62,683 bases of DNA from a virus. The DNA lies in the IMG/VR virus record IMGVR_UViG_3300042485_004141, positions 1-62,683 of that record, one strand, 5' to 3'. A model generated the notes under the pieces. The model saw only the letters and a program-made list of their open reading frames with translations, did no database searches and was not told where the DNA came from. Position numbers and translations under genes: made by a program. This document shows, one piece after another, positions 8,627 to 60,236 of this stretch (position 1 is its first letter; every line of letters begins with the position of its first letter).

Positions 8627-10687
8627 ATGGGCTGGAATTCGCCTCAAAACAAAGGCTTGGGCTCACAATCAAGCAAAAATTTAGGATACGGAGCCCCCAT
8701 ATCCATGAACCCATCCCTCGCTGGGAAGGCATATCGTGACTCTTGGGACATAGAGCGCGCCTATCGCGAAGGCATGTCTAAAATCACGTGGGTCAATAGG
8801 TGTATTGACGCAATCTCGGGAAACCAAGCGCGCTTGCCGATGATTTTAAGAAAAGACAATTCAAAACACGGCGAAATTGTTAAGGGCCGCGAAGCAAATC
8901 GCAATCCTCTGCTGGAGATTTTAAACAATAAAGCCAATGTCGGAGAAAACTCTTTTATTTTTAGATACAGGCTTTCTGCTCAGCTCATGCTGGGTACTCG
9001 TGGAGCTTTTATAGAAAAGATACGTGGACGTGATGGTGGAATCATTGGGCTCAACCTTCTTCCACCTCAGTCAACAGCACCGATACCAGACCCTAAAACG
9101 TTTGTTTCTGGCTACGAAGTGCAAATGCCTTATGGCGAGAAAATAATACTCAAGCCAGAAGATGTCTGCTGGGTTAGACGCCCTCACCCCATTGACCCTT
9201 ACCTATCGCTTACGCCTCTTGAGGCAGCAGGCGTGGCCATAGAAATTGAAAACCTTGCCAAGATTTACAACAGAAACTACCTTCTTAATGACGGACGTCC
9301 GGGTGGACTGTTGGTTGTCAGAGGTGAAATTGATGAAGACGACAAAGAAGAACTTCGTAACAGATTTAGAGGAAACCTAGCAAGGGCTGGACACACTACG
9401 GTTATCGCGGCAGACGACGGAGTTGACTTTGTCGATACTTCTGCAAACCCACGCGATGCTGCCTATGTCCAGATGCGTCAGATAACTAAAGAAGAAATAC
9501 TTTCTGCATTTGGTGTTCCTGAGTCTGTTATTGGTAACGCCTCTGGCAGAACCTTCAGTAACGCCTCAGAAGAAATTCGTGTTTTCTGGATGGAGACAAT
9601 GCTTCCCCATTTGGAGCCAATATCTAGAGCGCTGGACGAACTTGATGAAAAGTACTATCTGGATTTTGACACAACCGAAGTTCCAATCCTCATGCTTTAC
9701 AAGCAAGAGCGGGACAAGTATTTACTACAGGAATTCCAGTCTGGGCTAATTAGTGCGAACGAGTACAGAACTGGCTCGTCACGCAAAGAAGTAGATGCCG
9801 ACTTGGCTGACTCGCTTCTTCAGAATCCAAACCTTATTCCTATTGCAAACACGAAAAAGAAGATGGAAGAAGGACAGGCTCAAATTCCTGGGGCTCCTGG
9901 GGCCCCTCCAGGAATGCCGGGGATGCCACCTGGAATGCCTGGAATGCCACCTGGAATGCCAACTCCGGTTCCTCCAATGGCAGAGACTATTCCTCTGGAT
10001 ACGAACACCATGCAGGGGGCAATGGCCGAAGCCGGAATGGCCGAAGGTGGCGAATTGGCTCAAACCACTATTCCTACCGAGGCACTTGGTGGACTTCCGC
10101 AGCCAATGACTGTTGCGTCTTCTCCTAGTAATCAAATTCAAGTAAAAGAAATGATTGACAAGAACGAACAGTCAATTGAAAGATGGACTGAAATTCTTGC
10201 GAGAAGCGTTGAGCGTGTAGCGGAAAGACAACAAAGAGTAGTGCTAGAAAAAGCTAGCGGCTTGAAGTCTAAAAAGGCCTTAATGCACGGAACTCTTGAT
10301 GTTGACTCGGTTTTGTCAATTGAGACATGGAATAAGCAGATAGAGGAAGACATCCGTCCGGTTGTTTCTTCTATTATTAGCGATTCTTTTGAGTCACGAG
10401 TAAACGAAGCGTCCGAAAAGGGAGTAAAAGTAAAAGCTCTCCCAGTCAAGGACCTTCGCGCAATGGTTGATGCTCACGTTTCAAGAATTAAAAGAATAAA
10501 TGAAGCGAATTTTTCAGAAATTAATTCACTTATGATTAAATCTTTTGAATACGCAGACGAAGAAAGACGATATTCGTTCTTCAGAGACGGCTTAGTGGAA
10601 ATGTATACCGACTTCTTCGCTTATGGTCAATATCAACTGGCTGAAAATGAGGCTCGTTCCGCTTGGAACTTCGGTCAAACTGTTTAG
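8627..10687 (+). CDS. Portal protein, HK97-like
   Basis: The dodecameric portal forms the DNA entry and exit channel at one capsid vertex. The first 400 residues match the HK97 portal family: AYREGMSKITWVNRCIDAIS, NPLLEILNNKANVGENSF, GLNLLPPQSTAPIPDPKTF, VCWVRRPHPIDPYLSLTPLE, then KEEILSAFGVPESVIGNASG and FSNASEEIRVFW. At 686 residues it is longer than usual. The extra C-terminal third holds a proline/methionine/glycine repeat (about residues 421-445) and a helical segment. It is followed by a 126-base gap and the protease polyprotein, the usual portal-protease order. Confidence 0.9.
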   Translation: MGWNSPQNKGLGSQSSKNLGYGAPISMNPSLAGKAYRDSWDIERAYREGMSKITWVNRCIDAISGNQARLPMILRKDNSKHGEIVKGREANRNPLLEILNNKANVGENSFIFRYRLSAQLMLGTRGAFIEKIRGRDGGIIGLNLLPPQSTAPIPDPKTFVSGYEVQMPYGEKIILKPEDVCWVRRPHPIDPYLSLTPLEAAGVAIEIENLAKIYNRNYLLNDGRPGGLLVVRGEIDEDDKEELRNRFRGNLARAGHTTVIAADDGVDFVDTSANPRDAAYVQMRQITKEEILSAFGVPESVIGNASGRTFSNASEEIRVFWMETMLPHLEPISRALDELDEKYYLDFDTTEVPILMLYKQERDKYLLQEFQSGLISANEYRTGSSRKEVDADLADSLLQNPNLIPIANTKKKMEEGQAQIPGAPGAPPGMPGMPPGMPGMPPGMPTPVPPMAETIPLDTNTMQGAMAEAGMAEGGELAQTTIPTEALGGLPQPMTVASSPSNQIQVKEMIDKNEQSIERWTEILARSVERVAERQQRVVLEKASGLKSKKALMHGTLDVDSVLSIETWNKQIEEDIRPVVSSIISDSFESRVNEASEKGVKVKALPVKDLRAMVDAHVSRIKRINEANFSEINSLMIKSFEYADEERRYSFFRDGLVEMYTDFFAYGQYQLAENEARSAWNFGQTV
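9889..9963 (+). repeat. Collagen-like PGMPGMPPGMP repeat in the portal gene
   Basis: A short imperfect DNA repeat built on ggaatgcc(acc/tgg) units encodes a run of GAP and GMP/PGM triplets. The glycine-every-third pattern resembles collagen-like tracts of phage proteins, though here it is short and lies in the portal's extended C-terminal region. Confidence 0.6.
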
Positions 10688-10813: not shown

Positions 10814-11353
10814 ATGTTGCCTGAACTGTACGAATATAAGTCAACTACGCTTGGAACATCCTTTGCGACCAAAGGTGGCTCCATCAACCTAGATGAAGCT
10901 CAGGGGATGGTTGAGTGCTTCGTAGCCGGGATAGGCAATAAGGACTCGGTGGGGGACATTGTTACCACTGGCGCATTCACCAAAAGCCTTACTCGCCGGA
11001 AACCTCGTGTTGTTTGGGGCCACAACTGGAACGACCCAATCGGCAAAGTTTTAGAGATTTACGAAGTACCAAACACGGACCCAAGACTGCCTTTAAAAAT
11101 GAAGATGGCAGGAATCGGTGGGCTTTTTGCTCGCGTTCAGTTTAACCTCAACTCTGAAAAAGGTAAAGAAGCGTTCGCTATGGTCGCTTTCTTTGGCGAA
11201 GAACAAGAATGGTCAATTGGCTACAAGACGCTTCGTGCCCAGTTCGACCAAAAGTCGCAAGCAAACGTTATTTACGAACTTGAACTATACGAAGTATCTC
11301 CAGTTCTTCATGGGGCAAACCAACTCACCGGCACCATTTCCGTAAAGTCAGAA
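10814..11353 (+). other. Domain: HK97-type prohead protease (S78-like)
   Basis: The family's catalytic serine is in QEWSIGYKTL (S134) and the histidine in VVWGHNWNDPIGKV (H70). The segment YELELYEVSPVLHGANQ is the strand and loop that usually closes the domain. The enzyme normally removes the scaffold or delta domain of the capsid protein during maturation. Nothing suggests loss of activity. The domain ends near residue 180, where an acidic linker begins. Confidence 0.85.
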
Positions 11354-14300
11354 GAAGGTGGATATTCCGGTCCAGTTTCTTATATGGAAGAAGACGAAGA
11401 AGAAACCATAAACCGTGCAGAAATTGAAAAGCAATTAGGCTTAATGCTTGGTGCAAAAGTTTCCTTGATGGACGTAAACGGAGAAGAGCTAACCTTTGCT
11501 CGTCGTGCGGACAACGGTGAAGTTGGCCGATACAAGTGTCATTTTAGCGGAGGTCGCGGACGATACATGTTTGGAGCACCTGAGCCAGTTACGGTTGTTG
11601 CGCCACGCAGACCGTCAGTGCCTATGCCTGGAATGCCAATGATGCCAGTTGGGTCTCCGGGAATCGTAATAAACCAGCCTCAGCGTCCTACGCGTCCACC
11701 GGCAATGTCCATGCCTATCGCTGTAAGACCAGGACAAAATGGTCCCCAGATAATTGCGCTTCCAGCAGTTGAGTACGAAGATGATGATACGCAAGAATTC
11801 GACCCGACCAACTTGGACAAAGAAGAAGCAGACCTAAGGGATGCGCTTCTTAAGATAACAAAACGTCATGGCAAGTTTAATCAAGACTCAGAAGGTGTGT
11901 GGGCTGGGTACACGCCAGCTGCCGAAAACTCAATCGCCGGCATAGGCGTTAAGTGTGCTAATTGCGTTTTTTATCAAGGTGGCGATAGTTGCAAGATTAT
12001 TGACATGGAAGTTGAATCAGAAGGAAAGTGCCGTTTCGCCGTCATACCAAACGGAGTAGTAAAGGGTGATTCAACCGCTAAAAAGACATACGAAATCGAA
12101 GAAGAGTTCACTCAAGAAGACTACGTTTCTGACCTTGAGGTTAAGTACCCTGGAGAGTTGGCTATAGCGGCTCTTCGTGGGGCCGTCGGAAGACGTAGAC
12201 AAAAGCGTCGTAAGTTCAAGTTGCTGAGCGAGTTCGGTTCACAAAGTGATTGGCCTGAAGAGAAGGCCTATCTATTGCCTGTCGTGCCAAAGTTTGCCTT
12301 CATGGTCAAGCAGGCTCTAGACCCAATATTTGACTATCACGGCGTTGAGTCTTTTGTAGACGTAGACGGAATCGTAATGACGTCCGGGATTAGTTATGAT
12401 TTGATTGACGCCGTTGACACAGCGGTTGATAACCTAAAAAAAAAATCTATAAATCAAAATGACATAGAGTGGAAGGCTGCTAGTTACCGACTTGGTCGTG
12501 CTATTGGTGGTCGCTTAACAAATAAGCCAAACATTGGTGGGGGTCGTTCGTCTGGGAGATTCTTCACGTCAATTGGGGCGGAAGATTTTGACCCATTTTC
12601 CGCACGTGATGCCAACCTGAACGGAATAGTCGGTGAAGGCTTGTTCCTTCGTGGTATTCCACTTGCTACTCCAGACCCAACACCGGATGGTCCTGGTTCA
12701 ATACGTAACCCAAAACCATCTCGCGCTCAAGTACGCAAGCCTGAATCGGAGATTCTCGACCGTGCTGGGGATGGAAAAGTCAAGCCGGTCGGCTCAAAAC
12801 TCAACAGCGGAAAACTGTTTGATGTACCACGCATGGATGACCCCGATGTAGATTCTGCAGCCAAATACGGTTCTGCCGAGTCGCAACGAGACGAGCTTCA
12901 GGGCGTACTTGATGGAGCTTCAGATAAAGACCAAATAAAGAAACTGAAGCAAGCTATTGCTGAGCTTGACAAATACATGGCAAGCGTTGAGAAGATGGCT
13001 GAAGGCGAAATGGAGCGCGAAAAGCCGAAGAAAAAGCCCAAGGCGTCACAGGTTCTTAACAGAGAAAACACCCAGTTGGCCAGAGGCCTAAAACCCGAGC
13101 GCATACCAATCGCTGGTCAATCGATGACAAGCGTAGAACGCTTCTCTTCTGGCAAACTTCCTGACAAAGCTCAGCTTCCAGAAGGCTCCTCACAGCTTAA
13201 AGAATTCTACGAAGCAATGTCTAAAGACGTAGTAAAACTTTTGACCGACCTAATGAACGACCCAAATAGCGATAAGAACTGGAAGCTTCCATGGCGTCGC
13301 CCTGAGCTCTATGCAAGAAACCCTACGCGTGGTCGCGTGTATCAGGGCATGAACCAACTCACTCTTAGTTTGATTGGCATGTCTCGTGGGTATGAACTAC
13401 CTCGATGGGCTGGAGAAGGTCAATGGAAAAAGCTTGGTGGAAAACTTAAGCCAGGCGGAAGAAGCAAGGGCGTCTCCATTCTCGTTCCACGAGAAGGAAG
13501 AACATTTACCGACATAAACGGAAAAGAAGTCGTTGAGGGGCGCTATTACGAGGCTCAGACTGTTTACAACGTAGCCGAGGTAGCCGGACTTGCGCAGAAA
13601 TACTACGACCCTATTGAAACAGAAATAAATCAAGAAGCAAGACTTGAAGACTTAGAAAATGTTATTAAAGAAATAGGTCCTGATTTTGTTGAATCATTTG
13701 GCGAAGACGCTTTTTATCGTCCATCAACAGACAAAATTCATATGCCTGCTTTTGAACAATTTGTCGATGCTGCGGCTTTTTATGGAACAGCGATGCATGA
13801 AACCGTTCATTGGACGTCTCACCCAACACGCCTAAACAGAACTTTGGGTAAAGAATTTGGCGACGAACAGTACGCATTTGAAGAGCTGATTGCTGAGATA
13901 GGTTCAGCATTCGCAATGGGTGCAATGGGTCTTGAGCCAACAATCAGAGATAATCACCTTGTTTATGTAGCTGGATGGTTGAAGAAACTGACGGCGGACC
14001 CACTTGCTTTGCACAGAGCCATCCTTTCTGCTCAACAGGCAAACGACTACTTGCTGGACCGCTCATCAACAATGCGAAGACTTGCTGGTATTCCAGACGA
14101 TGAACGAAAAGGCAAAGACAACACCTGGCTAGAAGTACCAATGCTTACTGGATACGAAGATTCTCCAAGAATCAAACCAACACCAGGCATAAGCGGAACA
14201 ATGGAAGACATGCTGGACGTAGAGTTCCCAGACGATTTCACGCCAGAGGCTAGGAGAACGTCTTTCGCAGAACGAGAGATGAGTTCTCTTTCACGAAATC

Positions 14301-17300
14301 TTCCAACAAAGACCAAAGACGGAATCGTCATTACTCCGTCTGGAAGACTTTCTAGCGGCAGGGGCCCAATTAAGGGAAAGAACCCTAAAGCACCAGAAAT
14401 AAAGCCCATAGATGAGACGGTAGCGCTCAGGCTTGCATTCGGTTTGTCAAACGAGCCAACCGAAGAGCAGCGAGACATTATGGCGGTCGCCATGAATCTC
14501 ATTAGAAACAAAGACCCGCGTATATTGTCTATTCTTGCAGGTGCTGGAACTGGTAAAACCACAACGCTAAAGAGCATCGCATGGGGGCTGCAGAGAGAAT
14601 TCGACCTATGGCCAGAAGACGACATACGGAGACCAGAACAACTCAGGTACCTCTCAGACAGATACGGTGTTGACTTCTCCGGCATGTCCGCAGAACAGGT
14701 TAAGGAATCTGTAGAAAAGCTAGCTGAAGAAAAATCAATAAACAATCTTTACTATGCGGTATTCAACAAGAAAAATCAGTTCGAAGCAGAATTGGAGTTT
14801 CCAAGGAATACTGGAGTATCGACGACCGACAAGATTTGGTATTGGTCACTAAAGCTGGGACAGGGCGACAAAAAATACGGAACTGGAATGCGCAGAAAAA
14901 TGCAATTTGCATTGATTTCGCCTACTGACAAAAAGGCAAATAACCCTGGAGCCAAGAACCCCAAATTCATCAGCGAAGCCCTAACTCCTGATGAACCAGA
15001 AAAATTAAAACCACAGTTCGACCGCGAATTGTTCGATGGGACGCTCGAGACTTTTGATGGGTTTGAGCCAGGTTATAGAACTCTTGGTTGGACAAGATTA
15101 GATACCGGAAACGATTGGAAAGAATTTCTAAATTTTGCCGATGAAAAACGTTGGAAGGGGCAAGTAACAAGACCCAATGAGGTTCCAGTCCTCGACGACA
15201 AGGGCAAGCCAGTTAGAGATGCTAAGGGAAAAATTACAACGAGAATAGAAGACCTGCCTGGTTTTATTCTTCCAGACCTTCAGGGAACATTCGTTAGCCG
15301 AGACCAGTTTGGAGACATATTTAAAAATGCCCTTACCAGATGGAGTCTTTCAAAAGAAGAAAAAGCAGCAGCATGGATGTTTACTCAGCCACCCATGCAA
15401 CAGCAAGAAGTCGATACGCCACGCGGGCTTGATAAAGATATAAGTCCTGTCGACACCTTCTTTGGTGAACAATTTGTCCCACCCCAATGGGTAGCGGCCC
15501 TGCAGGAAGCAATAGACAAATTTTCTGATGGGGATAGCAACATGCTCCCACCTAGGGACGCTGTTGCAAAATTATGGATGCTCACTGAGCCCGACCTTCG
15601 CACAGACCCGGGCTTAATAACGCACACCGAGTCACAAGAGCGTAAAAAAACCCTCCCAGACAGATATGCGGTTGGTGATGAGTATGAATTCGAAGGCGAA
15701 ACATGGATAGTCAAGACAAGAAAAAAGAGTAAAGGCAAAAACGTTCAAGTTACTCTAACTAAGAGAATGGCAACAGAAGAAAAACCACTCAGTGCATTTT
15801 TTGTTGACGAAGCACAAGATTCAAATGAAATTCTTGAAACAGTACTTGATAACAATAGAGCCAATCTTCCAATAGTTGTTGTTGGAGACGACAGACAAGC
15901 CGTTTATGCGTTCCGTAACGCAAAAAATATCCTTGAGTCTCTAAACGCTGACTACGAATTAACAATTACAGAATCTTTTAGATACGGGGAAGTGGTTGGA
16001 CACCTGACAAACCTTGTTCTAGGTATGCAAAACCTCTACCTTGACAAGCAGGGGGTCCCTCAACTGCCGTGGAAGCACGTTAAAGGCAAGGCTCAGGTTG
16101 TTGTACACAGGCTCTTCGACCCACTGCTTCCTAAAAAAGACAGAAAAGGACTTGAGCCGGTTGACGAAATTGACGATGCCACGCGCGAGTTCCTGCTTAG
16201 AGATATAGAAGAAAAATTCTCAACCCCAGAAAAGCGTTTGAATTTCTCTATACATACGGTTGGAAAGCAAGCTGGAAAAAAATTAACACGTAAAGAGCAG
16301 GATGAAAAACTTAGAGAATTAAGAGACTCCGTCCTTGAGCCGAAAGCCGGAAAAGTAGTAGACAGGGTTGAGGAAGCAAATAAAGAAGTTCCAAATCTTC
16401 CAACCATGATTCTCTGCAGAACCAACGCGGAAATCATTAATGAAACTCTTAAGTTTATTAAACTTGTTGTCGATAGTCCAAATGCAAAAAAAGACGACAA
16501 CGGACTGCCGATTATGCCAGAAGTGGTCATTCCTTTAAGCAAGCACGAAGAACTTTTAAAGTTTACCAAACACCTTGAGTACATCTTTATGCCTCAGGCA
16601 GAAAAAGATAAGCGTGGTCTTCCCGAAGTTTCGGGATGGATTGGGCCAATTTTTGACCAGGGTGGACTAAATAGGGTAATAAATCAAAAAGCAGGGCAGC
16701 AAGCCAGGAGCGCTTTTAAGCTCATAATGCAAAAGCCTCCCGCTGGCGGTTCTGCTCTTGGCATATCAGGAATGTTGACCCTTCTCAACGGCAAGCAAAA
16801 AATTGAAATAGATGCAAAAACCGGCAAAGAAAAAATTATTGTTATCCCTGCATCAATTCTTCCAGAAAGAAAAAGCATAACGCTTGAGAATTTCAGAAAA
16901 GAACCGGAAGAAATTGATGCCATATCAAAAGCTTCCAAAGCAGCAGATGCGCCTCAAGCAAAAGATTCTCAATTAGAAAGAATCGTAATAATTCCTCCAC
17001 CTAGCAATTCGACTGACGGTCGCCAGGCCGTATATGCTCAGCTGGAAATAACGGGCGGCGACGCAAAAAATCCTGGAAAACCAACTGGGAAAATTATTAT
17101 TACCGGTGATGGTGTAGACACGGGTAGACCACAGACACTTCCTGACGGTTCCGAAGGGAAAAATATACCCCCTAACCAGAGGGTAGGCAATGGTCGCTAC
17201 AGAAGAGACCTAGAAAAAATAATTTTAAATCTTGGTTTATCCGAAAAAGTCAAGATAATGCAAGACGCTGAAAGAGGCGGACCAAAGGGTGGAGCAAAGC

Positions 17301-19564
17301 GCAGGGCGTTTGACGGCTTCGTAATTGAAGGCGAAAATCTTGAAGAGTCAACAAAGATACTGAATGACATCGGTCAAGCGATGAGGGACGCAGCCCAAGG
17401 CCCTGGCGGAGACGTAGAAATTACAACCATTCAGCTCTCAAAAGGCCGAGAGTCGGATTTTGTTGCAGTAGCAGAAGACCTGGGCGACCCTCGTGATTCA
17501 TTGGCTGCAAACATTCCACAAGGACAAGCAGGACTTGCCTTTATGGAAGAAACAAACCTCATTCACGTAGCCTTTTCTCGTGCGAAAAAGATGATTGACC
17601 CAGGCTGGAAGGGGTTTAAGTACTACCTCCACGATGAATCAACAAAAGATGTTCGCGCAGCAATTAAGAAAGCAGTGGCGGACGGTCATATTCCGCCAGA
17701 ACTAGACAAAGGAGCCTTTGGGGACAAAGACGGCGTCTCTCTTCCAAAGTTCTATGAAGAACTGAATCAGATGAGTCTTGACGACATAGGTGAAGACAAC
17801 CTTCCAAACCGAGAAACACCTGAAGAAAAAGAAATTGAAATTGACCCAGACCTGGTCATCGACGTGGATAAGGATATTAATGATGTTGTCCACGACCCAG
17901 ACGATTACGAATCTGAAGTAGACATAGATGACTTAATTGATGCGGATGAAATGGGCGACGATGGCGATAGTCAGATGCGTCTCTCTAGCGGAACGTCAAA
18001 CTACCCCGGCCCTGGCCGTCGTCTGTCTAGAAGAATGGGTGTAAGAAGCAGTAGTCGCGTCACCCCTGGTGCCATAAGCGCCCAAGACCTTGCTGCAATA
18101 AGAATTTCCGGAGACCCCAATTCGGCCAAGAATCGTCGCTTAATAGATTTTGCGATGCAGACATGGGCTGGCTTCAGGGAGAGAGGCATTGAAATAAATG
18201 CTGAAAGCAAAGATAAAACAAAAAACGCCATGGCAGAAGTAGGCAAAGCCATGAAGGCTCGCCAAAACAGGGTTCGAGTTGGACGAGTTGGAGACAACCT
18301 AGTCAACGATAGCCCATCGGCAGAAACATGGATGCTGTCAGTGGATGCCCTTGCTGAGCAGCTTCGAATTCCAGAATCATTCTCCATGAACGGAAAAGTT
18401 ATTCGGTCACGTTCTGCCACAAGACAGGAAATTGCAAGCCTTTTGGGCTTGAGTGGACAAAACAAGCAGAAAATTGAAAACCCAGATGCTGGAATAAACC
18501 ATGATGCAGTGAGGCTTTTGATTGCGGAACTTGGAAATCAACCCGGTCTTGAAGCGTGGCGCTATTTTGCTCCAGTTTCAAGAGATGAGATAAAAAAGAT
18601 AATTCCATCCCCAGAAGGGAACACAGAAAGCATCACTTCCGAAGTGGACATGGCAATGGAGAATGCCGGTAGAGCAAACATGCGCGACCGTTTCATCATT
18701 GAAACATTCGGCAAGGACGCATTCCCTTATTGGTTCGACCAAGACGAAGAAGAAGCAATCAGCCCAGATGAGTACTCCCAGCTAGGAGAGGTCGACGAGA
18801 GAGCAATGTTCCGTGCAACGGGACGATTTGCCGCTGACGACCCTTTCGAGGGGGATTCGGAAGCCGAAATTGACCTTTACGGACAAAGCTTCGACGAACT
18901 TTTAAACTCCCCATCCCTTCCCGATGATGGTGATGAAGTAATGAAGATTGACAAGACAAATAGAAAAGACTTTGATGTTGAGCCTTTAATTAAGTACCTA
19001 GGGATAGATAAGAAAGAGTGGATATCAAGACTTAGTGAGATTCTTTCTGAGGCATTTGGGGTGGAGAGCACTGGGGTCAATTCAGACTGGGCAAAGAAGG
19101 GAATCCCAACGGCGACTATTGCTCACATGATTCGTAAAGGAGTTCTACCAAACGCAGCAGACATTTGGAAGGAAGGCAAGACAGGCCAGCTATTTGACGA
19201 AGAACTACAAAGACCCAAGTATGCGGTTTATGAAGCCCTCAATGAGTTCATAGATAAAAGCTTCTCTAAAGCCAACAGGCTCAACAGTATTGCGAGCCGC
19301 AACAAGATAATTGGAGCTACGGACATGGCAACCGCGCTTAACGATGCTGCTGCAGCAAAAGGTTCAGCATGGGGCATAAAGAAAGGCACCGAGGTTGTAT
19401 TTTCTGTTTCAGAAATGCAAACAATGGTTGACAAGTTCAACGAAGTTTTTGGAACAACCCACACACTCGATGACATCTTTAGCGCTGAGCAGTTAAGAAC
19501 CGCAAAAGAAAGAATTGAGAACGGTCAAACGTTGTACGAAGGTACAAGAAACAAAAAAAAGTAA
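10814..19564 (+). CDS. Giant fusion 1: prohead protease - ArdC-like - SF1 helicase polyprotein
   Basis: A single uninterrupted frame of 2916 residues. In order: HK97-type prohead protease (1-180); a proline- and acid-rich linker; a four-cysteine module with CANC at about 380-405; a region with a calcium-loop-like D599-A-N-L-N-G; variant motif RFSSG (776); an ArdC-like domain with HETVH at 995-999; RLSSG (1178); a UvrD/Rep-type helicase (about 1195-2270); RLSSG (2389); and a C-terminal part of about 500 residues with a possible helix-turn-helix (ATRQEIASLLGLSG). Prohead proteases are normally about 200 residues, so the fusion is extreme. The place after portal is canonical for the protease. 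The domain mix fits the 'polyvalent protein' concept for phage proteins that enter the host with the DNA. I infer that it is cut into parts, possibly by its own protease. The function of residues 200-770 and 2390-2916 is unknown. Confidence 0.9.
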   Translation: MLPELYEYKSTTLGTSFATKGGSINLDEAQGMVECFVAGIGNKDSVGDIVTTGAFTKSLTRRKPRVVWGHNWNDPIGKVLEIYEVPNTDPRLPLKMKMAGIGGLFARVQFNLNSEKGKEAFAMVAFFGEEQEWSIGYKTLRAQFDQKSQANVIYELELYEVSPVLHGANQLTGTISVKSEEGGYSGPVSYMEEDEEETINRAEIEKQLGLMLGAKVSLMDVNGEELTFARRADNGEVGRYKCHFSGGRGRYMFGAPEPVTVVAPRRPSVPMPGMPMMPVGSPGIVINQPQRPTRPPAMSMPIAVRPGQNGPQIIALPAVEYEDDDTQEFDPTNLDKEEADLRDALLKITKRHGKFNQDSEGVWAGYTPAAENSIAGIGVKCANCVFYQGGDSCKIIDMEVESEGKCRFAVIPNGVVKGDSTAKKTYEIEEEFTQEDYVSDLEVKYPGELAIAALRGAVGRRRQKRRKFKLLSEFGSQSDWPEEKAYLLPVVPKFAFMVKQALDPIFDYHGVESFVDVDGIVMTSGISYDLIDAVDTAVDNLKKKSINQNDIEWKAASYRLGRAIGGRLTNKPNIGGGRSSGRFFTSIGAEDFDPFSARDANLNGIVGEGLFLRGIPLATPDPTPDGPGSIRNPKPSRAQVRKPESEILDRAGDGKVKPVGSKLNSGKLFDVPRMDDPDVDSAAKYGSAESQRDELQGVLDGASDKDQIKKLKQAIAELDKYMASVEKMAEGEMEREKPKKKPKASQVLNRENTQLARGLKPERIPIAGQSMTSVERFSSGKLPDKAQLPEGSSQLKEFYEAMSKDVVKLLTDLMNDPNSDKNWKLPWRRPELYARNPTRGRVYQGMNQLTLSLIGMSRGYELPRWAGEGQWKKLGGKLKPGGRSKGVSILVPREGRTFTDINGKEVVEGRYYEAQTVYNVAEVAGLAQKYYDPIETEINQEARLEDLENVIKEIGPDFVESFGEDAFYRPSTDKIHMPAFEQFVDAAAFYGTAMHETVHWTSHPTRLNRTLGKEFGDEQYAFEELIAEIGSAFAMGAMGLEPTIRDNHLVYVAGWLKKLTADPLALHRAILSAQQANDYLLDRSSTMRRLAGIPDDERKGKDNTWLEVPMLTGYEDSPRIKPTPGISGTMEDMLDVEFPDDFTPEARRTSFAEREMSSLSRNLPTKTKDGIVITPSGRLSSGRGPIKGKNPKAPEIKPIDETVALRLAFGLSNEPTEEQRDIMAVAMNLIRNKDPRILSILAGAGTGKTTTLKSIAWGLQREFDLWPEDDIRRPEQLRYLSDRYGVDFSGMSAEQVKESVEKLAEEKSINNLYYAVFNKKNQFEAELEFPRNTGVSTTDKIWYWSLKLGQGDKKYGTGMRRKMQFALISPTDKKANNPGAKNPKFISEALTPDEPEKLKPQFDRELFDGTLETFDGFEPGYRTLGWTRLDTGNDWKEFLNFADEKRWKGQVTRPNEVPVLDDKGKPVRDAKGKITTRIEDLPGFILPDLQGTFVSRDQFGDIFKNALTRWSLSKEEKAAAWMFTQPPMQQQEVDTPRGLDKDISPVDTFFGEQFVPPQWVAALQEAIDKFSDGDSNMLPPRDAVAKLWMLTEPDLRTDPGLITHTESQERKKTLPDRYAVGDEYEFEGETWIVKTRKKSKGKNVQVTLTKRMATEEKPLSAFFVDEAQDSNEILETVLDNNRANLPIVVVGDDRQAVYAFRNAKNILESLNADYELTITESFRYGEVVGHLTNLVLGMQNLYLDKQGVPQLPWKHVKGKAQVVVHRLFDPLLPKKDRKGLEPVDEIDDATREFLLRDIEEKFSTPEKRLNFSIHTVGKQAGKKLTRKEQDEKLRELRDSVLEPKAGKVVDRVEEANKEVPNLPTMILCRTNAEIINETLKFIKLVVDSPNAKKDDNGLPIMPEVVIPLSKHEELLKFTKHLEYIFMPQAEKDKRGLPEVSGWIGPIFDQGGLNRVINQKAGQQARSAFKLIMQKPPAGGSALGISGMLTLLNGKQKIEIDAKTGKEKIIVIPASILPERKSITLENFRKEPEEIDAISKASKAADAPQAKDSQLERIVIIPPPSNSTDGRQAVYAQLEITGGDAKNPGKPTGKIIITGDGVDTGRPQTLPDGSEGKNIPPNQRVGNGRYRRDLEKIILNLGLSEKVKIMQDAERGGPKGGAKRRAFDGFVIEGENLEESTKILNDIGQAMRDAAQGPGGDVEITTIQLSKGRESDFVAVAEDLGDPRDSLAANIPQGQAGLAFMEETNLIHVAFSRAKKMIDPGWKGFKYYLHDESTKDVRAAIKKAVADGHIPPELDKGAFGDKDGVSLPKFYEELNQMSLDDIGEDNLPNRETPEEKEIEIDPDLVIDVDKDINDVVHDPDDYESEVDIDDLIDADEMGDDGDSQMRLSSGTSNYPGPGRRLSRRMGVRSSSRVTPGAISAQDLAAIRISGDPNSAKNRRLIDFAMQTWAGFRERGIEINAESKDKTKNAMAEVGKAMKARQNRVRVGRVGDNLVNDSPSAETWMLSVDALAEQLRIPESFSMNGKVIRSRSATRQEIASLLGLSGQNKQKIENPDAGINHDAVRLLIAELGNQPGLEAWRYFAPVSRDEIKKIIPSPEGNTESITSEVDMAMENAGRANMRDRFIIETFGKDAFPYWFDQDEEEAISPDEYSQLGEVDERAMFRATGRFAADDPFEGDSEAEIDLYGQSFDELLNSPSLPDDGDEVMKIDKTNRKDFDVEPLIKYLGIDKKEWISRLSEILSEAFGVESTGVNSDWAKKGIPTATIAHMIRKGVLPNAADIWKEGKTGQLFDEELQRPKYAVYEALNEFIDKSFSKANRLNSIASRNKIIGATDMATALNDAAAAKGSAWGIKKGTEVVFSVSEMQTMVDKFNEVFGTTHTLDDIFSAEQLRTAKERIENGQTLYEGTRNKKK
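13170..14140 (+). other. Domain: ArdC-like antirestriction module with metallopeptidase site
   Basis: The N-terminal half (NWKLPWRRPELYARNPTRGR and YQGMNQLTLSLIGMSRGYE) matches the ssDNA-binding part of ArdC (formerly DUF1738). The second half has the zincin helix MHETVHWTSH, with HETVH at residues 995-999, and a downstream EELIAEIGSAF that supplies the third ligand Glu. ArdC proteins of conjugative plasmids protect incoming DNA from restriction. Within a virion-borne polyprotein the same role would make sense for phage DNA. Confidence 0.78.
14390..17620 (+). other. Domain: UvrD/Rep-like SF1 helicase
   Basis: Motif I is GAGTGKTT (residues 1243-1250) with the preceding LSILA strand; motif II is VDEAQD (1664-1669), followed by the motif III-like GDDRQAVYAFRNA; motif VI is HVAFSRAKK near 2251-2259. 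The order and spacing fit SF1A helicases, although the inserts are large and the helicase spans over 1000 residues. It may unwind host or phage DNA early in infection. The motifs appear intact. Confidence 0.82.
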
Positions 19565-19631: not shown

Positions 19632-19689
19632 TAAAGACATTTAACGGTTAATGGTCTATCGGTCATTCCTTTGCACTAATAGGAGTTGT

Positions 19690-21321
19690 ATGAATTACGA
19701 CGAAAAAGTTACAGTAAGCATTGACGGAAACGGCGATGTGCTTAAGTGCGCCAAGGGTGCCTCTACTTCCGAATGCGGATACGTCAAGGGTGCAGAGCTT
19801 TGCGGTAAGTGCGGCGCTATGCCGGTGGAAATGAAGATGGTTCCAGTAGTCGAACCGTCTGAAGACGAAGACATGGAGAACACTGACGAGCCAATGACAG
19901 CTGCTCCTATGGCTAAAAAAATAAAAAAGAAGATGAATGGCGCGCCTATTGAAATGGCTGACGAATCTGACGAGCCAGAAATGACCGAAGACGAAATGGC
20001 CGCTCTCATGCCAAAGAAGAAAAAAGGCATGGGCACGGGTGTCCCCGTGATGGATGAAGAAGACGAAATGATGGACGAAGAAGACGAAATGATGGAAGAC
20101 GAAGAAGACGAAGAGAAGATGATGTCATCTAATCGCGGCGGCAGCGCTCCAAGAAGAGAGCGCATGGCTCGTATGAAGGGTATGGATGAAGCCATGCCTG
20201 AAGATGAAGACGAGGAGATGGAAGAGGAAGACGACGAAGAAGAGATAAAGGGCATGCATGCGATGCCGAAGAAGAAGAAAAACATGGATGAATCCATGAT
20301 GGAAGACGATGAAGAAGAAGAAGATGAAGAGGAAGAGGAAGAAGAAGATGAAGACGTCGAAATGGGTGTTAAGTCATTTTCTGCTCGCGATTCTGAATGG
20401 GAAATGATTCGTCAGTCACGCATAAAATCACTTGGTCTCAAAGCTTCTGACGTTGGTGTTTCTGGTTATCTTTGTGCCCTTGAGCGTAAAGCCTATGGTG
20501 GTTCTTCTCCTGTTTGTGATGACTGCCCTGGCGGCTGCGTGTCCGAAAAAGGAATGCCTGGAATTCTCCACGTTGAAGGAATGGCTGAAAAGATGTTCGA
20601 CGGGGTCGTTGTAGATTCTGGATACTCGTCAGATGCAGACATGTTCGTAATTGACGTGCAAGTTAAAGATGGTTCAATTAATGAAGTTTTCGTAGACGGA
20701 AGCAGCGCAGAAATGCTCGGATTCCACAAGCTCGACTCTTCAAGCTTTGAGCAAAAATCAGAAGTCGGGGCGTACACTCTTGTTGATTTTACGGAAGCAG
20801 CAGAAATAGCAGTTAAGTCAATTGACGGAACAGTTATCGCAGTAGAGCCTGACGTGTTTGAAGGATTCGATGCTTACGCCGTAGAAATAGAAGGATTTGA
20901 CGGAAAGTCTTACGATGTGTTCGTCGCTCTAGACGGAGAAGTCCTCGGCTACGACAAGTACGAAGCAGACGAGATTGAAGACATTGAAGCAGAGGCTGCA
21001 GAAATAGCTATCAAGCAGGCCTTTACTGAAGAACGTCGCATGGAAATGGCCAAGGAAGGAACCGCTCTTGAGGATGGTTCATATCCAATCGCTTCAGAGA
21101 CCGACCTAAGAAATGCAATTCAAGCTTACGGTCGTGCAAAAGATAAAGAAGCAGCAAAGAAGCACATCATGAAGCGGGCACAGGCTTTGAAGCTTGAGAG
21201 CCTAATTCCTGGTAACTGGTTAGCAGGCAGTGACGAAAAGAGTCAAGACGTTAGCGATGCAGAGTTCATGGCTTCTCTTGTTGAGTTTCAATTGCTTGAA
21301 GATTCAGCCGACGAAATCTAG
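19690..21321 (+). CDS. Acidic scaffold-like capsid-assembly protein with zinc ribbon
   Basis: The start is fixed by AGGAG at 19681-19685, giving 543 residues. The N-terminus has cysteine pairs (VLKCAKG, SECGYVK, LCGKCGAMP) that look like a zinc ribbon. Residues 60-230 are a very acidic low-complexity tract of Asp, Glu and Met broken by basic PKKKKG-type clusters. The middle has a cysteine-bearing segment (YLCALERKAYGG, CDDCPGGC). The C-terminus has DGSYPIASETDLRNAIQAYG and AAKKHIMKRAQALK, a domain I know from actinophage head-region proteins (DUF6582-like). The place between protease and capsid genes, and the acidity, suit a scaffold or a DNA-mimic internal protein. Function is inferred only. 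Confidence 0.65.
   Translation: MNYDEKVTVSIDGNGDVLKCAKGASTSECGYVKGAELCGKCGAMPVEMKMVPVVEPSEDEDMENTDEPMTAAPMAKKIKKKMNGAPIEMADESDEPEMTEDEMAALMPKKKKGMGTGVPVMDEEDEMMDEEDEMMEDEEDEEKMMSSNRGGSAPRRERMARMKGMDEAMPEDEDEEMEEEDDEEEIKGMHAMPKKKKNMDESMMEDDEEEEDEEEEEEEDEDVEMGVKSFSARDSEWEMIRQSRIKSLGLKASDVGVSGYLCALERKAYGGSSPVCDDCPGGCVSEKGMPGILHVEGMAEKMFDGVVVDSGYSSDADMFVIDVQVKDGSINEVFVDGSSAEMLGFHKLDSSSFEQKSEVGAYTLVDFTEAAEIAVKSIDGTVIAVEPDVFEGFDAYAVEIEGFDGKSYDVFVALDGEVLGYDKYEADEIEDIEAEAAEIAIKQAFTEERRMEMAKEGTALEDGSYPIASETDLRNAIQAYGRAKDKEAAKKHIMKRAQALKLESLIPGNWLAGSDEKSQDVSDAEFMASLVEFQLLEDSADEI
20050..20360 (+). repeat. Acidic low-complexity repeat (gaagacgaaatgatg units)
   Basis: Short imperfect repeats of gaagaagacgaaatgatg-type units encode Glu/Asp/Met runs such as DEEDEMMDEEDEMMEDEE. 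The copies are adjacent and partly identical, indicating slippage-type expansion. The antisense strand is open and serine-rich here, which is a composition artefact. Confidence 0.6.
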
Positions 21322-21336
21322 GAAGGGAGCACCACC

Positions 21337-24300
21337 ATGGTGGATGCCCCTATAAATAGGGAAAGAATCGTAGTTTCGGCGCGGCTTATCGTGCCTTTGT
21401 CGTGCTGCGGTGGATTCAACGAAAAAGCGCTTCGGTTTAGGCAGGCAATAAATTCTTCCGTATCTACTGGAAGACTAGAGCCAGAACTTGCAGTAAAAGC
21501 AGTTGGTGACGTTTTTGGTTTAAGAAAAAAAACAGCCGAAGATACCGATAACAAAAAAAGAGAATTCACTGGAGACACTCGTCCCGGTGTTGCTTCAAAC
21601 GAGTTCGGCTATCGATGGGACAAATCAGCTAAGTGGGAACCAGGTTCTCGTCTTGTCATAAACCCGTCGTACACGTCGCGCATGGGAATGGGAACAATGC
21701 CAAACGTGGGCTGGATTCCTAGAGACGAAAATCAACCAAAATCTTTTCCGGAAATGATTGCGAGAATTCAATCAGAACCAAAAATTCAGTTACGCAAATT
21801 TAAGATAAATCCAAAAACTGACGACATAATTCCTGAGTCAGAAAAGATAATTGACCCTTTTGCTATTTCTTCCGGAATGACAATGGAAGAACGACGCAAT
21901 GCGCGGAAAAAATATCAAATAGAAAACCCTGAAGAAAAAAGACTCCCAGGCGCAAGTCTTGAGTCACGAGTTCCAGGAGGCTCTCTTTTAAGTAGAGCGG
22001 CAGCTGTTTTTGGAATCTTGAGAGACGAGAACAATAAGTTTAGGTGCCCTCCGGGAACGCCGGCAGCCAACCAGTTTACCGACGCAACCGGCTCTAACTG
22101 CTTTGGTTTTAGTGCTTCAAAGTTTTCACGATACGCAGCGAGAGAAGCAGCCAAGCTTACGGCAGAAGGCGAATACGAGGGACTAAGAACGAACGCCTTT
22201 GCCTTCTTTAATTTTCTTCGCAACGACGTAGGTAGCAAGCAAAGAAGAGGTGTTGCCAGTCCAGAGCTTGTCTCCTCGTGTGCATATTGGGAAGACCTTT
22301 ATGGAGACAAGTTTAAACCGCCAGTATGGCGCGATACCCCAGTCCCAGAAAACCTTCGCATGTTTAAAAATGGCGCAATACGAGCGCAGGACGATATTGC
22401 AAGACAGAAGGCATCGGCTGTACGCATTTACGACGCTTTAGGAATTGACCCCAACGACCCTGACGCTCATTTTCAAGCTGTAGAAAAACTACGAAAGATG
22501 CACGTGGATAGCGACGGTGCTGCTGGATGGGACCTGCAAATACTGAATGTTTCTTCTGGTGGAGATGCGGCTCGGCTTACCGATTTAGAGGTAAGAGAGT
22601 TCACTGAAACAAGACTCAAATCAGTTCAAGGGTGGAATCTTTTATCAAAAGAAGAACAGCAGAGACTTATTGATTCGGACGTTAGACGGTATCAAGAAAC
22701 CGAACGTGCCATGTTTGAGACTCTGCTTGACCAGTTCATGCAAAACCCTTCAAGCGCAAGAGTGCTCGGCAGAATTGAATACGACTTTTTCTCTGATGAC
22801 GAAGCCGGAACGGGAATGTACAGAGACGCCCCCTCCATCGTTCCACGCTTAAAGCCAGACGGAACTCCAGTTGTTGACAAAGACGGCAACCCCGTAATGG
22901 GCAAGGTTCCTGGAGAACTTCGTAGCGTCATTCACATAAACATGAAAGAGATTCTCCAAAACCAAGAATCAATGCTTCCCAATATGGGACCAGATGAAAG
23001 ATTGGCAATTTCTGCAGTTGGCGCACGAAGCGAAGCGGAAGGTCGTTTAGCTGTAGCAGATTTTCTTGTCAACGCAGACCATACCGCAAGAGGCATGGCC
23101 GGACTAATTGATGGTGTCTACTCTTTCTCCAGCCATATCATGCTTCACGAGCATGCACACAGCATTCAGCTTCAAGTATTCATGGCTAAAATTCAAGAAC
23201 AGATAGACAGCAAAGGTTTTATATCTGTTCCAATAGTAGACAAAAATGGAATCGTCAAAGGAACAAGAAACGTAGACTCAATCTACAAACTATCCGGCGA
23301 TGACGTTATGGCGATAATGACCGACGTAGCAGATGATATAAACCTAGATTCCCTTAAAGACGCGATGGAGCGCATTAAGGCAGTGGCCCCACTTGCTGGA
23401 GCTTATCCAAGAGATGCGTACAAAGAGGGTTCAGAGGTTTGGGCGCTAGAAGTAGCAGCAGAGCTACACGCTCTTCGTGCAAGAGGCATAATATACGGAG
23501 AAGATATTGATGCCGCATTAGCCTTCATGGATGACATAGGAGACAGTAGGGCGTCAGTTGACAGAGCGCTTGGTGATGAGGCTGCAGAACTTGTTGATAT
23601 GGACGACGTATTTACTATTCGCCCAGACTCTGTTGTTCCAGACGGAATGCCAGAAGAATCCATAACTGAAGCGCTAGGAGACAGAGACGAACGTGTTGCT
23701 TCTGCTCTTCGTGAGGAAATAAAACGATTCAAGACGGGATTCAAAGACCTCCCTGAAGATGAAATGATTTCAGAAGCTGCAATCATTCAGTCTCAAAGAG
23801 ATGCTGCGAATAACACGTTAAAGAAACTTAATGATTTCAAGATTGACCCATCCCTGCCTGACGACGAAAAAGAGTCGACAAGGGAATATCTAGAGAACCT
23901 CAAGAAGCAGACGCAAATGGAATTGGACTTCCACGACACTAGATATAACGAAGCATCAAAAGCGTGGAGAAAAAAGTACGGCATCGGAGCCAGGGGAGAA
24001 AAAGACAGATTCGAAGAATCCGTTAAGGCAGTCCGTGAAAGAGAAGGACTGTTTGATGACGTCGAAATTGAGGAACTTGCAAAAATAGCAGCCCTCGATG
24101 ACCTTCGTAAGTCTGTAGAAAAAATGCCAGAAAAGAAGATAGTTCGACGCCTGGCTGATGACGAAATATATCTAAGCACTCTTGACCCTTCTTCCGATGA
24201 GGCTAAAAACCTAATTGAAAAGATAGACGTCATAAAAGAGCAGTATGTACAAAATATGCGTGACGCAGGAGACAAGTCAACAACTGCCAAAATAAAGAAA

Positions 24301-27300
24301 AATCTGGACCAGAGTGTTAAGGATTTGATTTCTCCTCCAGCGAAAAAGAACGTGTCCTTAAAGAGTAAGCAAGAAGCAAAAGACCATGCGTTAAAAGAAC
24401 GTCGTCGAGTTCGCGGAACAGCAGAGCAGAAAAAGGCAGTCAAAGAACTCGGGGACATTGCATCTTCAGATGTAGGACAACTACTTGACCCCGTAGCTCA
24501 AACCAGGGCCGGAAGAGCAATAAATAAAAGAAACGCCAGAATCAAGAGACTGGGACTTACGGTTGATGAAAAATCATCTGAAGAAGGCGATGTCGTCCAG
24601 CAGGTAGAGAATCTATTAATCCCAGTCATGGAAGTAATTGACGGAACGTCTATTGCTGACCCATTTGAGATGGAAACAGTTATTGATTTCGATTCAGGTG
24701 TTTTACGAGGAAAAATTGAAGGCAAAGAAATTGAAATGCCACAATTTGTTTCCGGCAAGGTCCTGACGACAAAAACAAAAAAACTGGACATGCCAGAAAA
24801 AGGAATTCGCGACAAAGAAACTGGGAAAACCGCTCGCCGTGTGGTTGTACAGGTTCGCGAGGGAGACAGGGGCCTCTTCCCTGCAGCGGGAGATGACGAC
24901 CAACGCTTCGTTGCTCCACCTGGACGCCTTCGCATTACGGGGATAGACCCTGATGGAACAGTAAGAGCAGAGTTGTCTTATCAAAAAGACTCTGTTGAGG
25001 TTATTGACTCCATGGCTCACAGTTTGGAAACAAACAAAACTGACGCCATTTGGGCTCAAAGTCACGGTAAAAAAATCAAAGCAGTAGCAGACAAGTACGT
25101 TAACTCCCGCCGTGAATCAGGGCGACTTTCTAGTGGTTCTAGAAGTGATTACGATTCCGTCTCAGAAACCTCAAGCAAAACGGTTGTAGACGAGGTTGTG
25201 GACGCTGGTGGTTCTTTCGGAGAAGGTTTTGACGAACTACCCCCTCACTTGTCGTCTGATGACTCAAGTTCCCGCTTGTCTTCTGGAAAGAAAGACGTAC
25301 TGGGCGCTCCTGCCACACGCAAGCAAAGAACAGAATCAAGAAACAAATCAATGTCTTCTCAGGTTAGGGAAGTTAAATCCATTCTTGGAGGAGGACAGGG
25401 AGATTCGGCCGACCCGTTATCAAGGGGCGACATTCATCCAGACGTAGCTCGTTTAATCGCTGACACTCCCGAAGAAGACTTGTTAGCGAGAGCCGAGAAT
25501 ACTGCGTACAGAATGCACGAAGGCTTTGATAGAAGAGTTCGCGTTCGCGCCACCGACGACGACATTGAGAGACTATCTTCCACTGGTTCAATAAGGTCCT
25601 CTTTTGCTTCTCCAGACGATGAAGCAAAGAGAACATCACGTAGAGCACAAAGATACTCGGGAATGGGGCCAAGTGAGCGTTCTTCACGTCTTTCATCCGG
25701 TCGAGTTATTGATTCCTCGGCCAATCTAGCTGAAAGAAAAAGACAAGAAAAAGAAGTCGCCACACAGGCTTTTGACATTTTTGACAAAGTTTTAAGCGGA
25801 GACGGCAAAAACATTGACGACATGTCTGAGGCGGAACTCTTTGCGGCTTTCAACGGAAAAGTAAAGAAGTCTAAGAAAAAATCAGTCAGCGCCACAAACG
25901 ACACACTGTATGAAGTCAACGACGTCCCAACAGCAATTGCATTAATGATGCTGGGGCATCACGTTGCTGTTAAGGACCAGGACCTGAGACTGACTGAGCA
26001 GTCACAAAAGGCGTTTGAAGAAGAAGTAAAAAATGCCGCAAAAAAGCATATTGATGCTAAAAATCCTCACCCTAAATGGGTCAAGTATCAAGAAAAGTAT
26101 AAAAAAGAATTTAAAGATTTAGATTTTAACGACCCGAAAGTTGTTAAAGAAATGGAAAAGAATTATGTAGAAAGCTACCAGGCCGACCTGTGTGCCCTAT
26201 ATAGCCCATTACAAAACTTGCTGTGTTCGGGACACATTGGTATCGATAGAGAAAAAATGCCTCAGACAAACGGAAGGTCTGCAGGTCACGATACTGTCGC
26301 AGTAAGAGCGCTAAAAGCCGGAGAAGCTGCCGGAAAGTTTGAACCCCTAAAGACAATAAAAAGAGATGCTGCCGTTGAAGCAGAGTTCGCAGAAGAGCTT
26401 AACGCAGCAGTAGCTAAAGCCAATGCTGGTAGAGTCAAAAAAGGCGAACCAGAATTGACAGACGAAGAGATTTCAAAACAACTTTATGAGATAGTTTCAG
26501 AAAAACACTCACTAAGAAATCAATTCGGAGGCAAAACACAGCAGGAACATAAGACGGAGTCTTATGAGAAATTGTCTGATGCTTCAAAAAACTGGCTATA
26601 TGAAAATACAGACTGGAACGACACAGAAGTAAACCTGGAGACACCGTTTATAGAATGGCTAGATGGCGTCATTGAGCCAGGAAATGGTAAACCTTCAGTA
26701 ATTCTCAAAGAAGTTAATCCTAAAGATTATGCCCCCTCGCAACAACAGCTAGTTGCATCAAAAGTAGACGCTACTGCTAGACAAATACAAACAAAAGCGA
26801 TAGAAGTTGCCGAGGGTATAAGAGCTGACAATCCTGGAATATCGGACGAAGACTTTAGGACAAAATACATAGAAGAGATGAACAAGCAGTGGTTCATGCA
26901 GCCAATTCTTACAGCAAACGATGGTTTTATTGTTGATGGCCATCACAGATGGGCAGGAATAAGGGTTGGAAATAATTCACTCCCAGAAGAGCTACAGCTC
27001 CCCTTGAAGGCTAATGAAATACAAACCGACATAATTGAAGCTTTAACTTTAGGAAAGATTTTTCAGGACGCTTGGGGAATTAAGGAAGCGCGCCTCGGAG
27101 CTGAAAACAAGTGGAAAGAGGGAGAAATAACCGACATCGGTAAGGAAGAAATATCTGAACTCATGGAAGGCTTGACCAAAAACGTAGGAACTCTTGTGGA
27201 CGACAAGTACGCCGAAGGAAACTTTATTCAGCTTGGCTCGGTTGGTCTTTCAAACAATCCAGACTATGCAGCGAGGGCAAAAGAAAGACAAGTCAATGCC

Positions 27301-34708: not shown

Positions 34709-36076
34709 ATGTCGGAAGACAAAGCACGTACAGAAGAACTACAATCAGCTCTTCGCACAAAGATGGCAGACAATAAGACCATCGCAGATTCATTCAAAAT
34801 CGAGGACGGCACAGTAGTCGTTACTCCTGAGCAAAAGTCAGCGTTCGACAAGAACATGCGCGACATCAAAGAAATCAAGGGCCTTATCGGTGACCTTGAG
34901 ACCATGAACCAAGTTGATAACTGGGCATCACAGCCATCAGGTAGCTCCACAGGAGCAGCTTATGCTGCCGCTGCAGCAGACCTTGGTAGCTTGTCATCAC
35001 ATGAAATCAAGTCAATTGGTCAAATGTTCACTGATTCAGCAGAGTTCAAGGCACTTAATGGTGGCCGCAATGGAGCAAACATGGTTTCACCATGGCAAAT
35101 TGCTGCATCGTTGACTTCATACACCTCTGGTTACAACGTAAAGGACGTTTACTCGGGTCTGCCAACAACAGCAGTAACCGATAGCCGTCTTGGTTCATTT
35201 GGTTCCGTACAGCGTGACCCAATGGTATTGCCACCAACACGTACAAAGCGTGTTCGTGACTTGTTCCCAGTCCGCAAGACAAACGCTGCAGTTATCGAAT
35301 ACTTCCGTCAACTTGGTTTCACAACCTTGCAGGCTGGAGCAGGCGTAAACAGTGCATCAACAGTTGCAGAGCGTAACGCCGGCAATACCGCATTCGGTGT
35401 CAAGCCACAGTCTTCGTTCGCCTTCGTTGGTGAGCAGGCTCCAGTGCGTACACTTGCACATTGGGAAGCAGCACACCGTAACGTTCTTGCAGACGAGCCA
35501 CAGCTCCGCAGCATCATCGACAACGAATTGATGTACGGTCTCCGTCTCCTTGAGGATAACCAAATCCTCAACGGTAACGGTGCTGGTGAAAACTTGTTGG
35601 GCGTTCGTAACACACCAAACATTCAGACATACAACTGGTCAAGCGGTGCAGCTCTGCCAGTACCAGACACCAAGGCAGATGCACTTCGTCGTGCGGCAAC
35701 CTTGTCGTTCCTTGCGTACTACGAGCCAAGCGGCATCGTTCTTCACCCGAACGACTGGGAAGACATCGAGCTTACCAAGGACACTAACGGCCAGTACCTC
35801 ATCGCAGTTTCGGTTGCAATGGGTGGCGAGCCACGCGTCTGGCGTATGCCAATCGTTGACACTCCAGCAATGACTGAAGGTAAGGCACTTGTTGGAGCCT
35901 TCGGTACCGGAGCACAGTTGTACGACCGTGAAGAAGCAAGCATCCGCATCAGCGAACAGCATTCGGACTTCTTCGTCCGCAACGCAATCGTTATCCTTGC
36001 AGAGCAAAGACTTGCACTCGCTGTCAAGCGCCCAGAAGCATTCGTCGAAGTAACCTTCAACAGCGCACCAGCCTGA
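34709..36076 (+). CDS. Major capsid protein, HK97 fold
   Basis: The 455-residue protein has the HK97-type plan. An N-terminal helical delta domain (1 to about 100, rich in Lys, Glu and Asp) is followed by the capsid fold, with the family landmarks VRDLFPVRKTNAAVIEYFRQ, FAFVGEQAPVRTLAHWEAA, LMYGLRLLEDNQILNGNG, SGIVLHPNDWEDIELTKD and RISEQHSDFFVRNAIVILAE. A strong AGAGGAG site precedes the ATG. Codon use looks more uniform and richer in G/C-ending codons than its neighbours, as expected for a highly expressed gene. A terminator follows directly. A short SLSS sequence lies at residues 94-97, at the expected end of the delta domain. Confidence 0.92.
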   Translation: MSEDKARTEELQSALRTKMADNKTIADSFKIEDGTVVVTPEQKSAFDKNMRDIKEIKGLIGDLETMNQVDNWASQPSGSSTGAAYAAAAADLGSLSSHEIKSIGQMFTDSAEFKALNGGRNGANMVSPWQIAASLTSYTSGYNVKDVYSGLPTTAVTDSRLGSFGSVQRDPMVLPPTRTKRVRDLFPVRKTNAAVIEYFRQLGFTTLQAGAGVNSASTVAERNAGNTAFGVKPQSSFAFVGEQAPVRTLAHWEAAHRNVLADEPQLRSIIDNELMYGLRLLEDNQILNGNGAGENLLGVRNTPNIQTYNWSSGAALPVPDTKADALRRAATLSFLAYYEPSGIVLHPNDWEDIELTKDTNGQYLIAVSVAMGGEPRVWRMPIVDTPAMTEGKALVGAFGTGAQLYDREEASIRISEQHSDFFVRNAIVILAEQRLALAVKRPEAFVEVTFNSAPA

Positions 36077-59906: not shown

Positions 59907-60236
59907 ATGACAACAGAACTAAACGCAAACACTTTTGATGAATTTATCCAAAGCGCAGATAAACCAGTCATTGTTGACTTTTGGGCACCCTGGTGTGGGC
60001 CTTGCAGGATAATTGCACCACTCATCGATGAACTGTCAACAGAAATGGCCGAAGAAGTAATATTTGCAAAAATGGACATAGAAGAGTTTCCAGAATTTGG
60101 CAAGCGATACTCCGTAATGTCAATTCCTGCTTTTGCAATGTTTAAAGACGGCGTATTCGGCGGACTAGTTCCTTCGAGGGGCGGTTACAGCAAAAGCCGC
60201 TTAACAGAAAACATTCGAATAGCCATCGCTCTTTAG
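59907..60236 (+). CDS. Thioredoxin
   Basis: A 109-residue thioredoxin. The active site is WCGPC (C30, C33) in VIVDFWAPWCGPCRIIAP, with the cis-Pro in SIPAFAMFKDG. There is no signal peptide. It probably gives electrons to the class II ribonucleotide reductase at 38944. It lies 38 bases after the PD-(D/E)XK-like gene and is followed by a tRNA-like element. Confidence 0.9.
   Translation: MTTELNANTFDEFIQSADKPVIVDFWAPWCGPCRIIAPLIDELSTEMAEEVIFAKMDIEEFPEFGKRYSVMSIPAFAMFKDGVFGGLVPSRGGYSKSRLTENIRIAIAL

Follow-up and report, generated by a model that had tools for sequence, protein, structure and literature searches.

A prohead protease domain of the S78 (HK97) type opens the first of three giant open reading frames in the window, a virus fragment of 62,683 bases from IMG/VR analysed over its whole length. 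The frame continues without interruption into enzymatic and counter-defence domains (giant ORF 1, 10814..19564, 2916 aa, on the + strand as are all features below unless indicated). A short motif, RLSSG and its variants, lies between the units of this frame and of the two other giants, and related lineages carry tags of their own. We consider it probable that the giants are virion-cargo polyproteins, in which the tags would be processing sites of one phage protease, most probably S78.

A prohead protease in front of its likely cargo

The domains of giant ORF 1 follow one another in the order S78 prohead protease, ArdC-N with MPTase, SF1 helicase and a C-terminal unit. Pfam matches are Peptidase_S78 at aa 32-175 (7.6e-11, score 42.9 for a cut-off of 21 bits), ArdcN at aa 820-888 (4.2e-13), MPTase-PolyVal at aa 946-1069 (8.6e-39) and UvrD-helicase (7.5e-11), and the PHROGs assignments are consistent with them. 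Together with alignment in the case of the protease, they place the S78 domain at aa 24-182 (10883..11359), the ArdC-N and MPTase-PolyVal unit at aa 806-1088 (13229..14077) and the UvrD-like SF1 helicase unit at about aa 1214-2259 (14453..17590). The C-terminal unit (17993..19561) is conserved in relatives and gave no match to known folds in a fold search. An earlier note had described an S78 protease with H70 and S134 at the head of this 2916-residue frame, fused to ArdC-like and UvrD-like domains as its own likely cargo, and had placed the product among polyvalent proteins. Pfam and PHROGs confirm the domains, their order in one open frame confirms the fusion, and the presence of several enzymatic or counter-defence domains on one polypeptide beside head genes agrees with the polyvalent-protein theme.

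The S78 domain is predicted to be an active HK97-type prohead protease. Catalytic H70 and S134 are invariant in an alignment of 30 relatives, and the gene sits between those of the portal protein (8627..10687; Pfam and PHROGs) and of the HK97 gp5-type major capsid protein (34709..36076). The NCBIfam model of the HK97 prohead protease, TIGR01543, scores 48.4 bits, under its equivalog cut-off of 59, and a fold search with the S78 model returned weak matches only, herpesvirus proteases among them (E 0.2-0.8). AlphaFold predicts a beta-hairpin for the stretch after Ser134, and the residues just past this nucleophile vary with motif class. Between giants 1 and 2, the window encodes an acidic scaffold-like protein (19651..21321) whose C-terminus is like that of the S78 protein of phage DalanDe, judging from its sequence.

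A search for homologues with the same fusion returned dozens of contigs. A protease-domain scan of IMG/VR gave 541 relatives, and in two further scans queried with diverged members the relatives are at least those listed; these contigs partly re-sample the same phages, redundancy being filtered only in the sets called non-redundant. Closed frames of about 2880-3465 aa start with this protease in dozens of contigs, which rules out an assembly artefact behind the fusion. Across relatives the S78 frame spans ~550 to >3500 aa; in the motif class of the window, closed members are nearly all giants, save frameshifted or short ones. S78 is unfused and ~785-890 aa long in five genomes (G010, G011, G017, G022, G023), whose large ORFs are separate. 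Because relatives carry an unfused S78 plus separate motif-bearing giants, the protease fusion is one state of a continuum. In L031 and L064, the S78 frame ends at ~540 aa solely because it is shifted by 1 nt at an A-run (KKKS, at ~aa 545 and ~aa 536, respectively) just past the protease/scaffold-like unit, and it resumes downstream; a sequencing indel is possible, as is a programmed frameshift that would give free protease. L458, a contig from the bin of a Phycisphaerae MAG, carries an S78 frame of 2.7 kaa in which GLxSRR-like repeats occur, so that the polyprotein scheme might extend past the clade of the window.

WhiB-like genes in the core gene set, together with the closest annotated relatives, which are phages of Gordonia, Brevibacterium and Streptomyces, suggest an actinobacterial host. 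Reading of the translations also pointed to PAPS-reductase-like, thioredoxin-like and ribonucleotide-reductase-like genes in the window (822-1961, - strand; 59907-60236, + strand; 38944-40869, - strand).

The motif lies at the borders of exchangeable units

RLSSG occurs 13 times in the three giants for 0.014 copies expected by shuffling, and nowhere else in the window. The broader form [RK][LF][SAN]SG has 18 copies in the 9422 aa of the giants (0.16 expected) and none in the remaining 10,282 aa. Codons vary between copies, which rules out a DNA-level repeat as the source of the motif. In giant ORF 1, the copies are KLNSG at aa 662 (12797..12811), which closes the protease/scaffold-like unit, RFSSG at aa 776 (13139..13153) and RLSSG at aa 1178 (14345..14359) and aa 2389 (17978..17992), the last in a predicted disordered linker; the ArdC/MPTase and helicase units are each enclosed by two of the copies at 776, 1178 and 2389. 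Their cores are conserved (0.71-0.88) and their flanks poorly so (percentile 0.11-0.35). AlphaFold places motif 662 within a stretch (aa 546-690) that has pLDDT <50 nearly throughout, in a model whose mean is only 58, and motif 2389 within aa 2335-2420, also at pLDDT <50. In the two models that contain one, the motifs are thus predicted to occupy flexible linkers. No Shine-Dalgarno sequence with a start codon was found near any of the 18 copies, which rules out internal starts at the unit joints; an internal start giving a free protease, which the earlier note would have counted against its reading, is not an applicable test since the protease is N-terminal.

Giant ORF 2 (21337..30030, 2897 aa) contains four RLSSG motifs, at aa 1263 (25123..25137), 1313 (25273..25287), 1451 (25687..25701) and 2543 (28963..28977), as well as a zincin-like signature HEHAH at aa 604 (23146..23160). 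Giant ORF 3 (46011..56840, 3609 aa) has ten motifs. RLSSG closes its conserved N-terminal leader at aa 121 (46371..46385) and recurs at aa 292 (46884..46898), 1139 (49425..49439), 1784 (51360..51374), 1814 (51450..51464), 2197 (52599..52613) and 3471 (56421..56435); KLSSG at aa 3114 (55350..55364) stands immediately past pentapeptide repeats, and RLASG starts both an RNase T-type exonuclease unit (aa 848-1138, 48552..49424) and the unit of aa 1381-1783 (50151..51359). The delimitation of the likely cargo by a motif, as in the earlier note, is therefore real, copies bounding the ArdC and helicase units with strong enrichment over shuffling. That reading was right about fusion and motif and too narrow in its extent, as units of two more giants are bounded in the same way; the observation was correct, and understated.

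Giant 3 of six genomes (the window, G001, G002, G003, G005 and G020) was cut at the motifs and the resulting units were compared. They align end to end and their order differs, hence the units move. Alignment ends fall close to a motif in 145 of 254 cases for a random mean of 34.6, and 28 alignments run across a motif for 70 at random, in a comparison that ignores domain structure and counts every alignment in both directions; such motif-near ends place the motifs at unit borders. The exonuclease unit is full-length in the five other genomes at other places, starting at residue 848 in the window and at 746, 102, 869, 586 and 119 in G001, G002, G003, G005 and G020, respectively. Unit 1381-1783 is 96% identical to residues 1421-1823 of G003 beside neighbouring units at 30-80%, and on these identities we conclude that this single unit was recently exchanged between the lineages of the window phage and of G003.

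Tags switch lineage by lineage

Each lineage has its own tag, which recurs over its giants and usually also in its tape-measure protein: RLSSG in the window, SLSSG in G002, FSSG in L036 and L070, ISGRM in G010 and G011, GFASR in G018, [VI]SGxM in G022 and GLAS in G016, and, in single contigs, LGSRS (L419), GMRSR (L442), RGMAS (L402) and GPVGxM (L317). In a cross-count, every genome shows an excess of its own motif, with the motifs of the other genomes close to background. Among near-complete relatives, RLSSG is confined to giants and tape-measure protein, save for two hits in G003, both in small ORFs. Of the S78 giants in a non-redundant set of 44, ~32 have a top repeated word that is of this form and exceeds each of 20 shuffles; short or motif-poor frames are among the rest. 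In G017, S78 is present and no motif was detected. A short consensus is thus common to several putative substrates. Prohead-protease consensus sequences differ between phages, T4 and phiKZ included. Motif type tracks the S78 tree (14 changes for a shuffled mean of 26.2), as is to be expected for any core gene.

That the tag changes jointly across the giants of a genome points to one reader that acts on all of them in trans. That the giants are ordinary polyvalent proteins, whose linker repeat is conserved without function and spread by recombination, is very improbable: genomes do exchange units at these places, but codons vary between copies and a passive linker would not switch simultaneously in all giants of a genome.

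Which protease would read the tags

For the functional steps past translation, i.e. cleavage by a given cutter, packaging and injection, we infer the following scheme. The three giant ORFs would be translated as polyproteins of virion cargo, comprising antirestriction, helicase, exonuclease, probable acetyltransferase and ADP-ribosyltransferase, zincins and further units. The chains would enter the prohead by way of the protease/scaffold-like unit and of the conserved leaders at their N-termini; there, lineage tags (RLSSG here) in flexible linkers would serve as processing sites for one phage-encoded protease. At maturation this protease would cleave capsid protein and linkers, and the freed units would exit with the DNA upon infection. 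An EF-hand-like sequence, DxDxDGxxxEGT, is found near the start of many giants (aa 599 of ORF 1, aa 76 of ORF 3), also in those of G017, G016 and G023, with seven regex matches in G017; it is a candidate capsid-targeting signal.

S78 was found in every motif-bearing genome where look-up was possible. Equally conserved is an HExxH at aa ~400-600 of giant 2, present in every genome examined. By analogy with HK97, the capsid protein is likely cut at K101|S102 (EIK-SIG). That of the window has no [LF][SA]SG motif, at the EIK-SIG boundary or elsewhere, and does not provide the proof for S78 that such a motif would have been; S78 would consequently need two kinds of site. Some lineages have LSS at the capsid boundary, with no clear covariation with the polyprotein motif. 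The tape-measure protein of relatives carries the lineage motif at two places, residue 35 and ~570-630, which counts against S78 because a tail protein would be hard to reach for a head-enclosed protease. S78 is therefore ranked first, yet not alone, in view of the conserved giant-2 zincin, the motif-less capsid protein and the motif-bearing tape-measure protein.

These same observations feed a variant of the scheme, rather unlikely in our judgement, in which the giant-2 zincin or some other peptidase of the phage does the cutting, either inside the infected cell or following ejection. A protease not restricted to the head would reach the tape-measure motif more easily, and Iyer et al. proposed such a role for MPTase domains (PMC5512222). 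Yet annotated MPTase-PolyVal (PF18818) is absent from six genomes (G010, G011, G016, G017, G022 and G023), most of them with motifs, which speaks against this domain as the tag reader. Other zincins are present in the genomes examined, but several zincins are shuffled cargo units themselves and cultured relatives without motifs have zincins as well. Pfam scans covering 47 of the ~60 core proteins showed no further peptidase family among the matches listed, one scan listing the best 25 of 26 families. ClpP, considered as another cutter, is absent from 11 records.

Concerted change of the tags would equally result from a coevolving binding partner. The tag could then be a docking motif, one per unit, that binds uncut cargo chains to a capsid or scaffold protein, as would suit its presence in the tape-measure protein; N4 virion RNA polymerase, a giant injected protein, indeed stays whole (PMC5512222). 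We find this improbable, since the tags lie between units rather than one per chain, coincide with unit borders, and belong to a chain with a fused protease domain whose catalytic residues are intact. Processing of the tags by one phage protease, with S78 as the first candidate, is the reading that we retain.

Relation to known systems

Polyproteins are a known strategy of RNA viruses and retroviruses. In herpesviruses, the maturation protease (assemblin/pUL26) is made at the N-terminus of a longer precursor, whose extension is scaffold and not enzymes as here. The closest annotated S78 proteins, those of Bendigovirus phages (DalanDe, Hanem, GMA6), Cantare and Gilgamesh, have 38-44% protease identity, lack the repeated motif and are mostly 417-641 aa long. 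The DalanDe protein has an N-terminal extension and, as query against viral contigs, found two loci only; that of Gilgamesh has a Nudix-like part.

Polyvalent proteins such as P1 DarB/DdrB and N4 vRNAP are multi-domain, encoded next to head genes and thought to be injected, and Iyer et al. (2017) themselves draw the polyprotein analogy with MPTase as the proposed cutter (PMC5512222). The giants share with them ArdC-N, MPTase, helicase and ADP-ribosyltransferase-like parts and the counter-defence theme. Unlike them, as far as the available text describes, they have a prohead-protease fusion and a repeated unit-bounding motif, and MPTase can be missing here while motifs remain. Ejection proteins processed by prohead proteases, among which P1 is counted (PMC9024508), are the other nearest kind. 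In T4 (gp21), phiKZ and SPN3US, one phage protease acts on several head or internal proteins at a short consensus. The SPN3US enzyme, gp245, processes both head and ejection proteins at A-X-E sites, with a preference for Ser at P1' (PMC10052503). In these systems, however, single proteins shed propeptides, whereas here long chains would split into many units, the protease lies within one chain and the capsid protein has no motif. In the available text, none of these three sources describes an S78 fusion or a unit tag that switches between lineages.

A literature search, with subscription journals and preprints outside its scope, found no match for RLSSG with phage and no description of such a protease fusion; fusion, unit tag and lineage switching of the tag appear undescribed in it. 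Our results suggest a cut-apart phage polyprotein resembling those of RNA viruses, for which this literature held no phage description. More tentatively, a group of tailed dsDNA phages may make its injected proteome as self-cleaving polyproteins of cassette-like units that include the maturation protease, in which protease specificity and dozens of cut sites in several genes switch together between lineages. If so, the polyprotein strategy would extend to tailed phages, one protease fold would offer a natural series of many site specificities, and cargo units would be freely exchangeable cassettes. In a very large group of uncultured phages, the tags would then show from sequence where injected counter-defence proteins begin and end, and uncharacterised units could be expressed and assayed singly using these borders.

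Two observations concern the cultured relatives. The S78 protein of Streptomyces phage Gilgamesh (L086:19950-21875), with its Nudix-like stretch, is by sequence another protease-enzyme fusion. In the portal-protease interval of Gordonia and Brevibacterium phages (L082-L085), an element RRVRTPEGAxKYGxPIGSxI is repeated near several N-termini and may be an analogous targeting signal.
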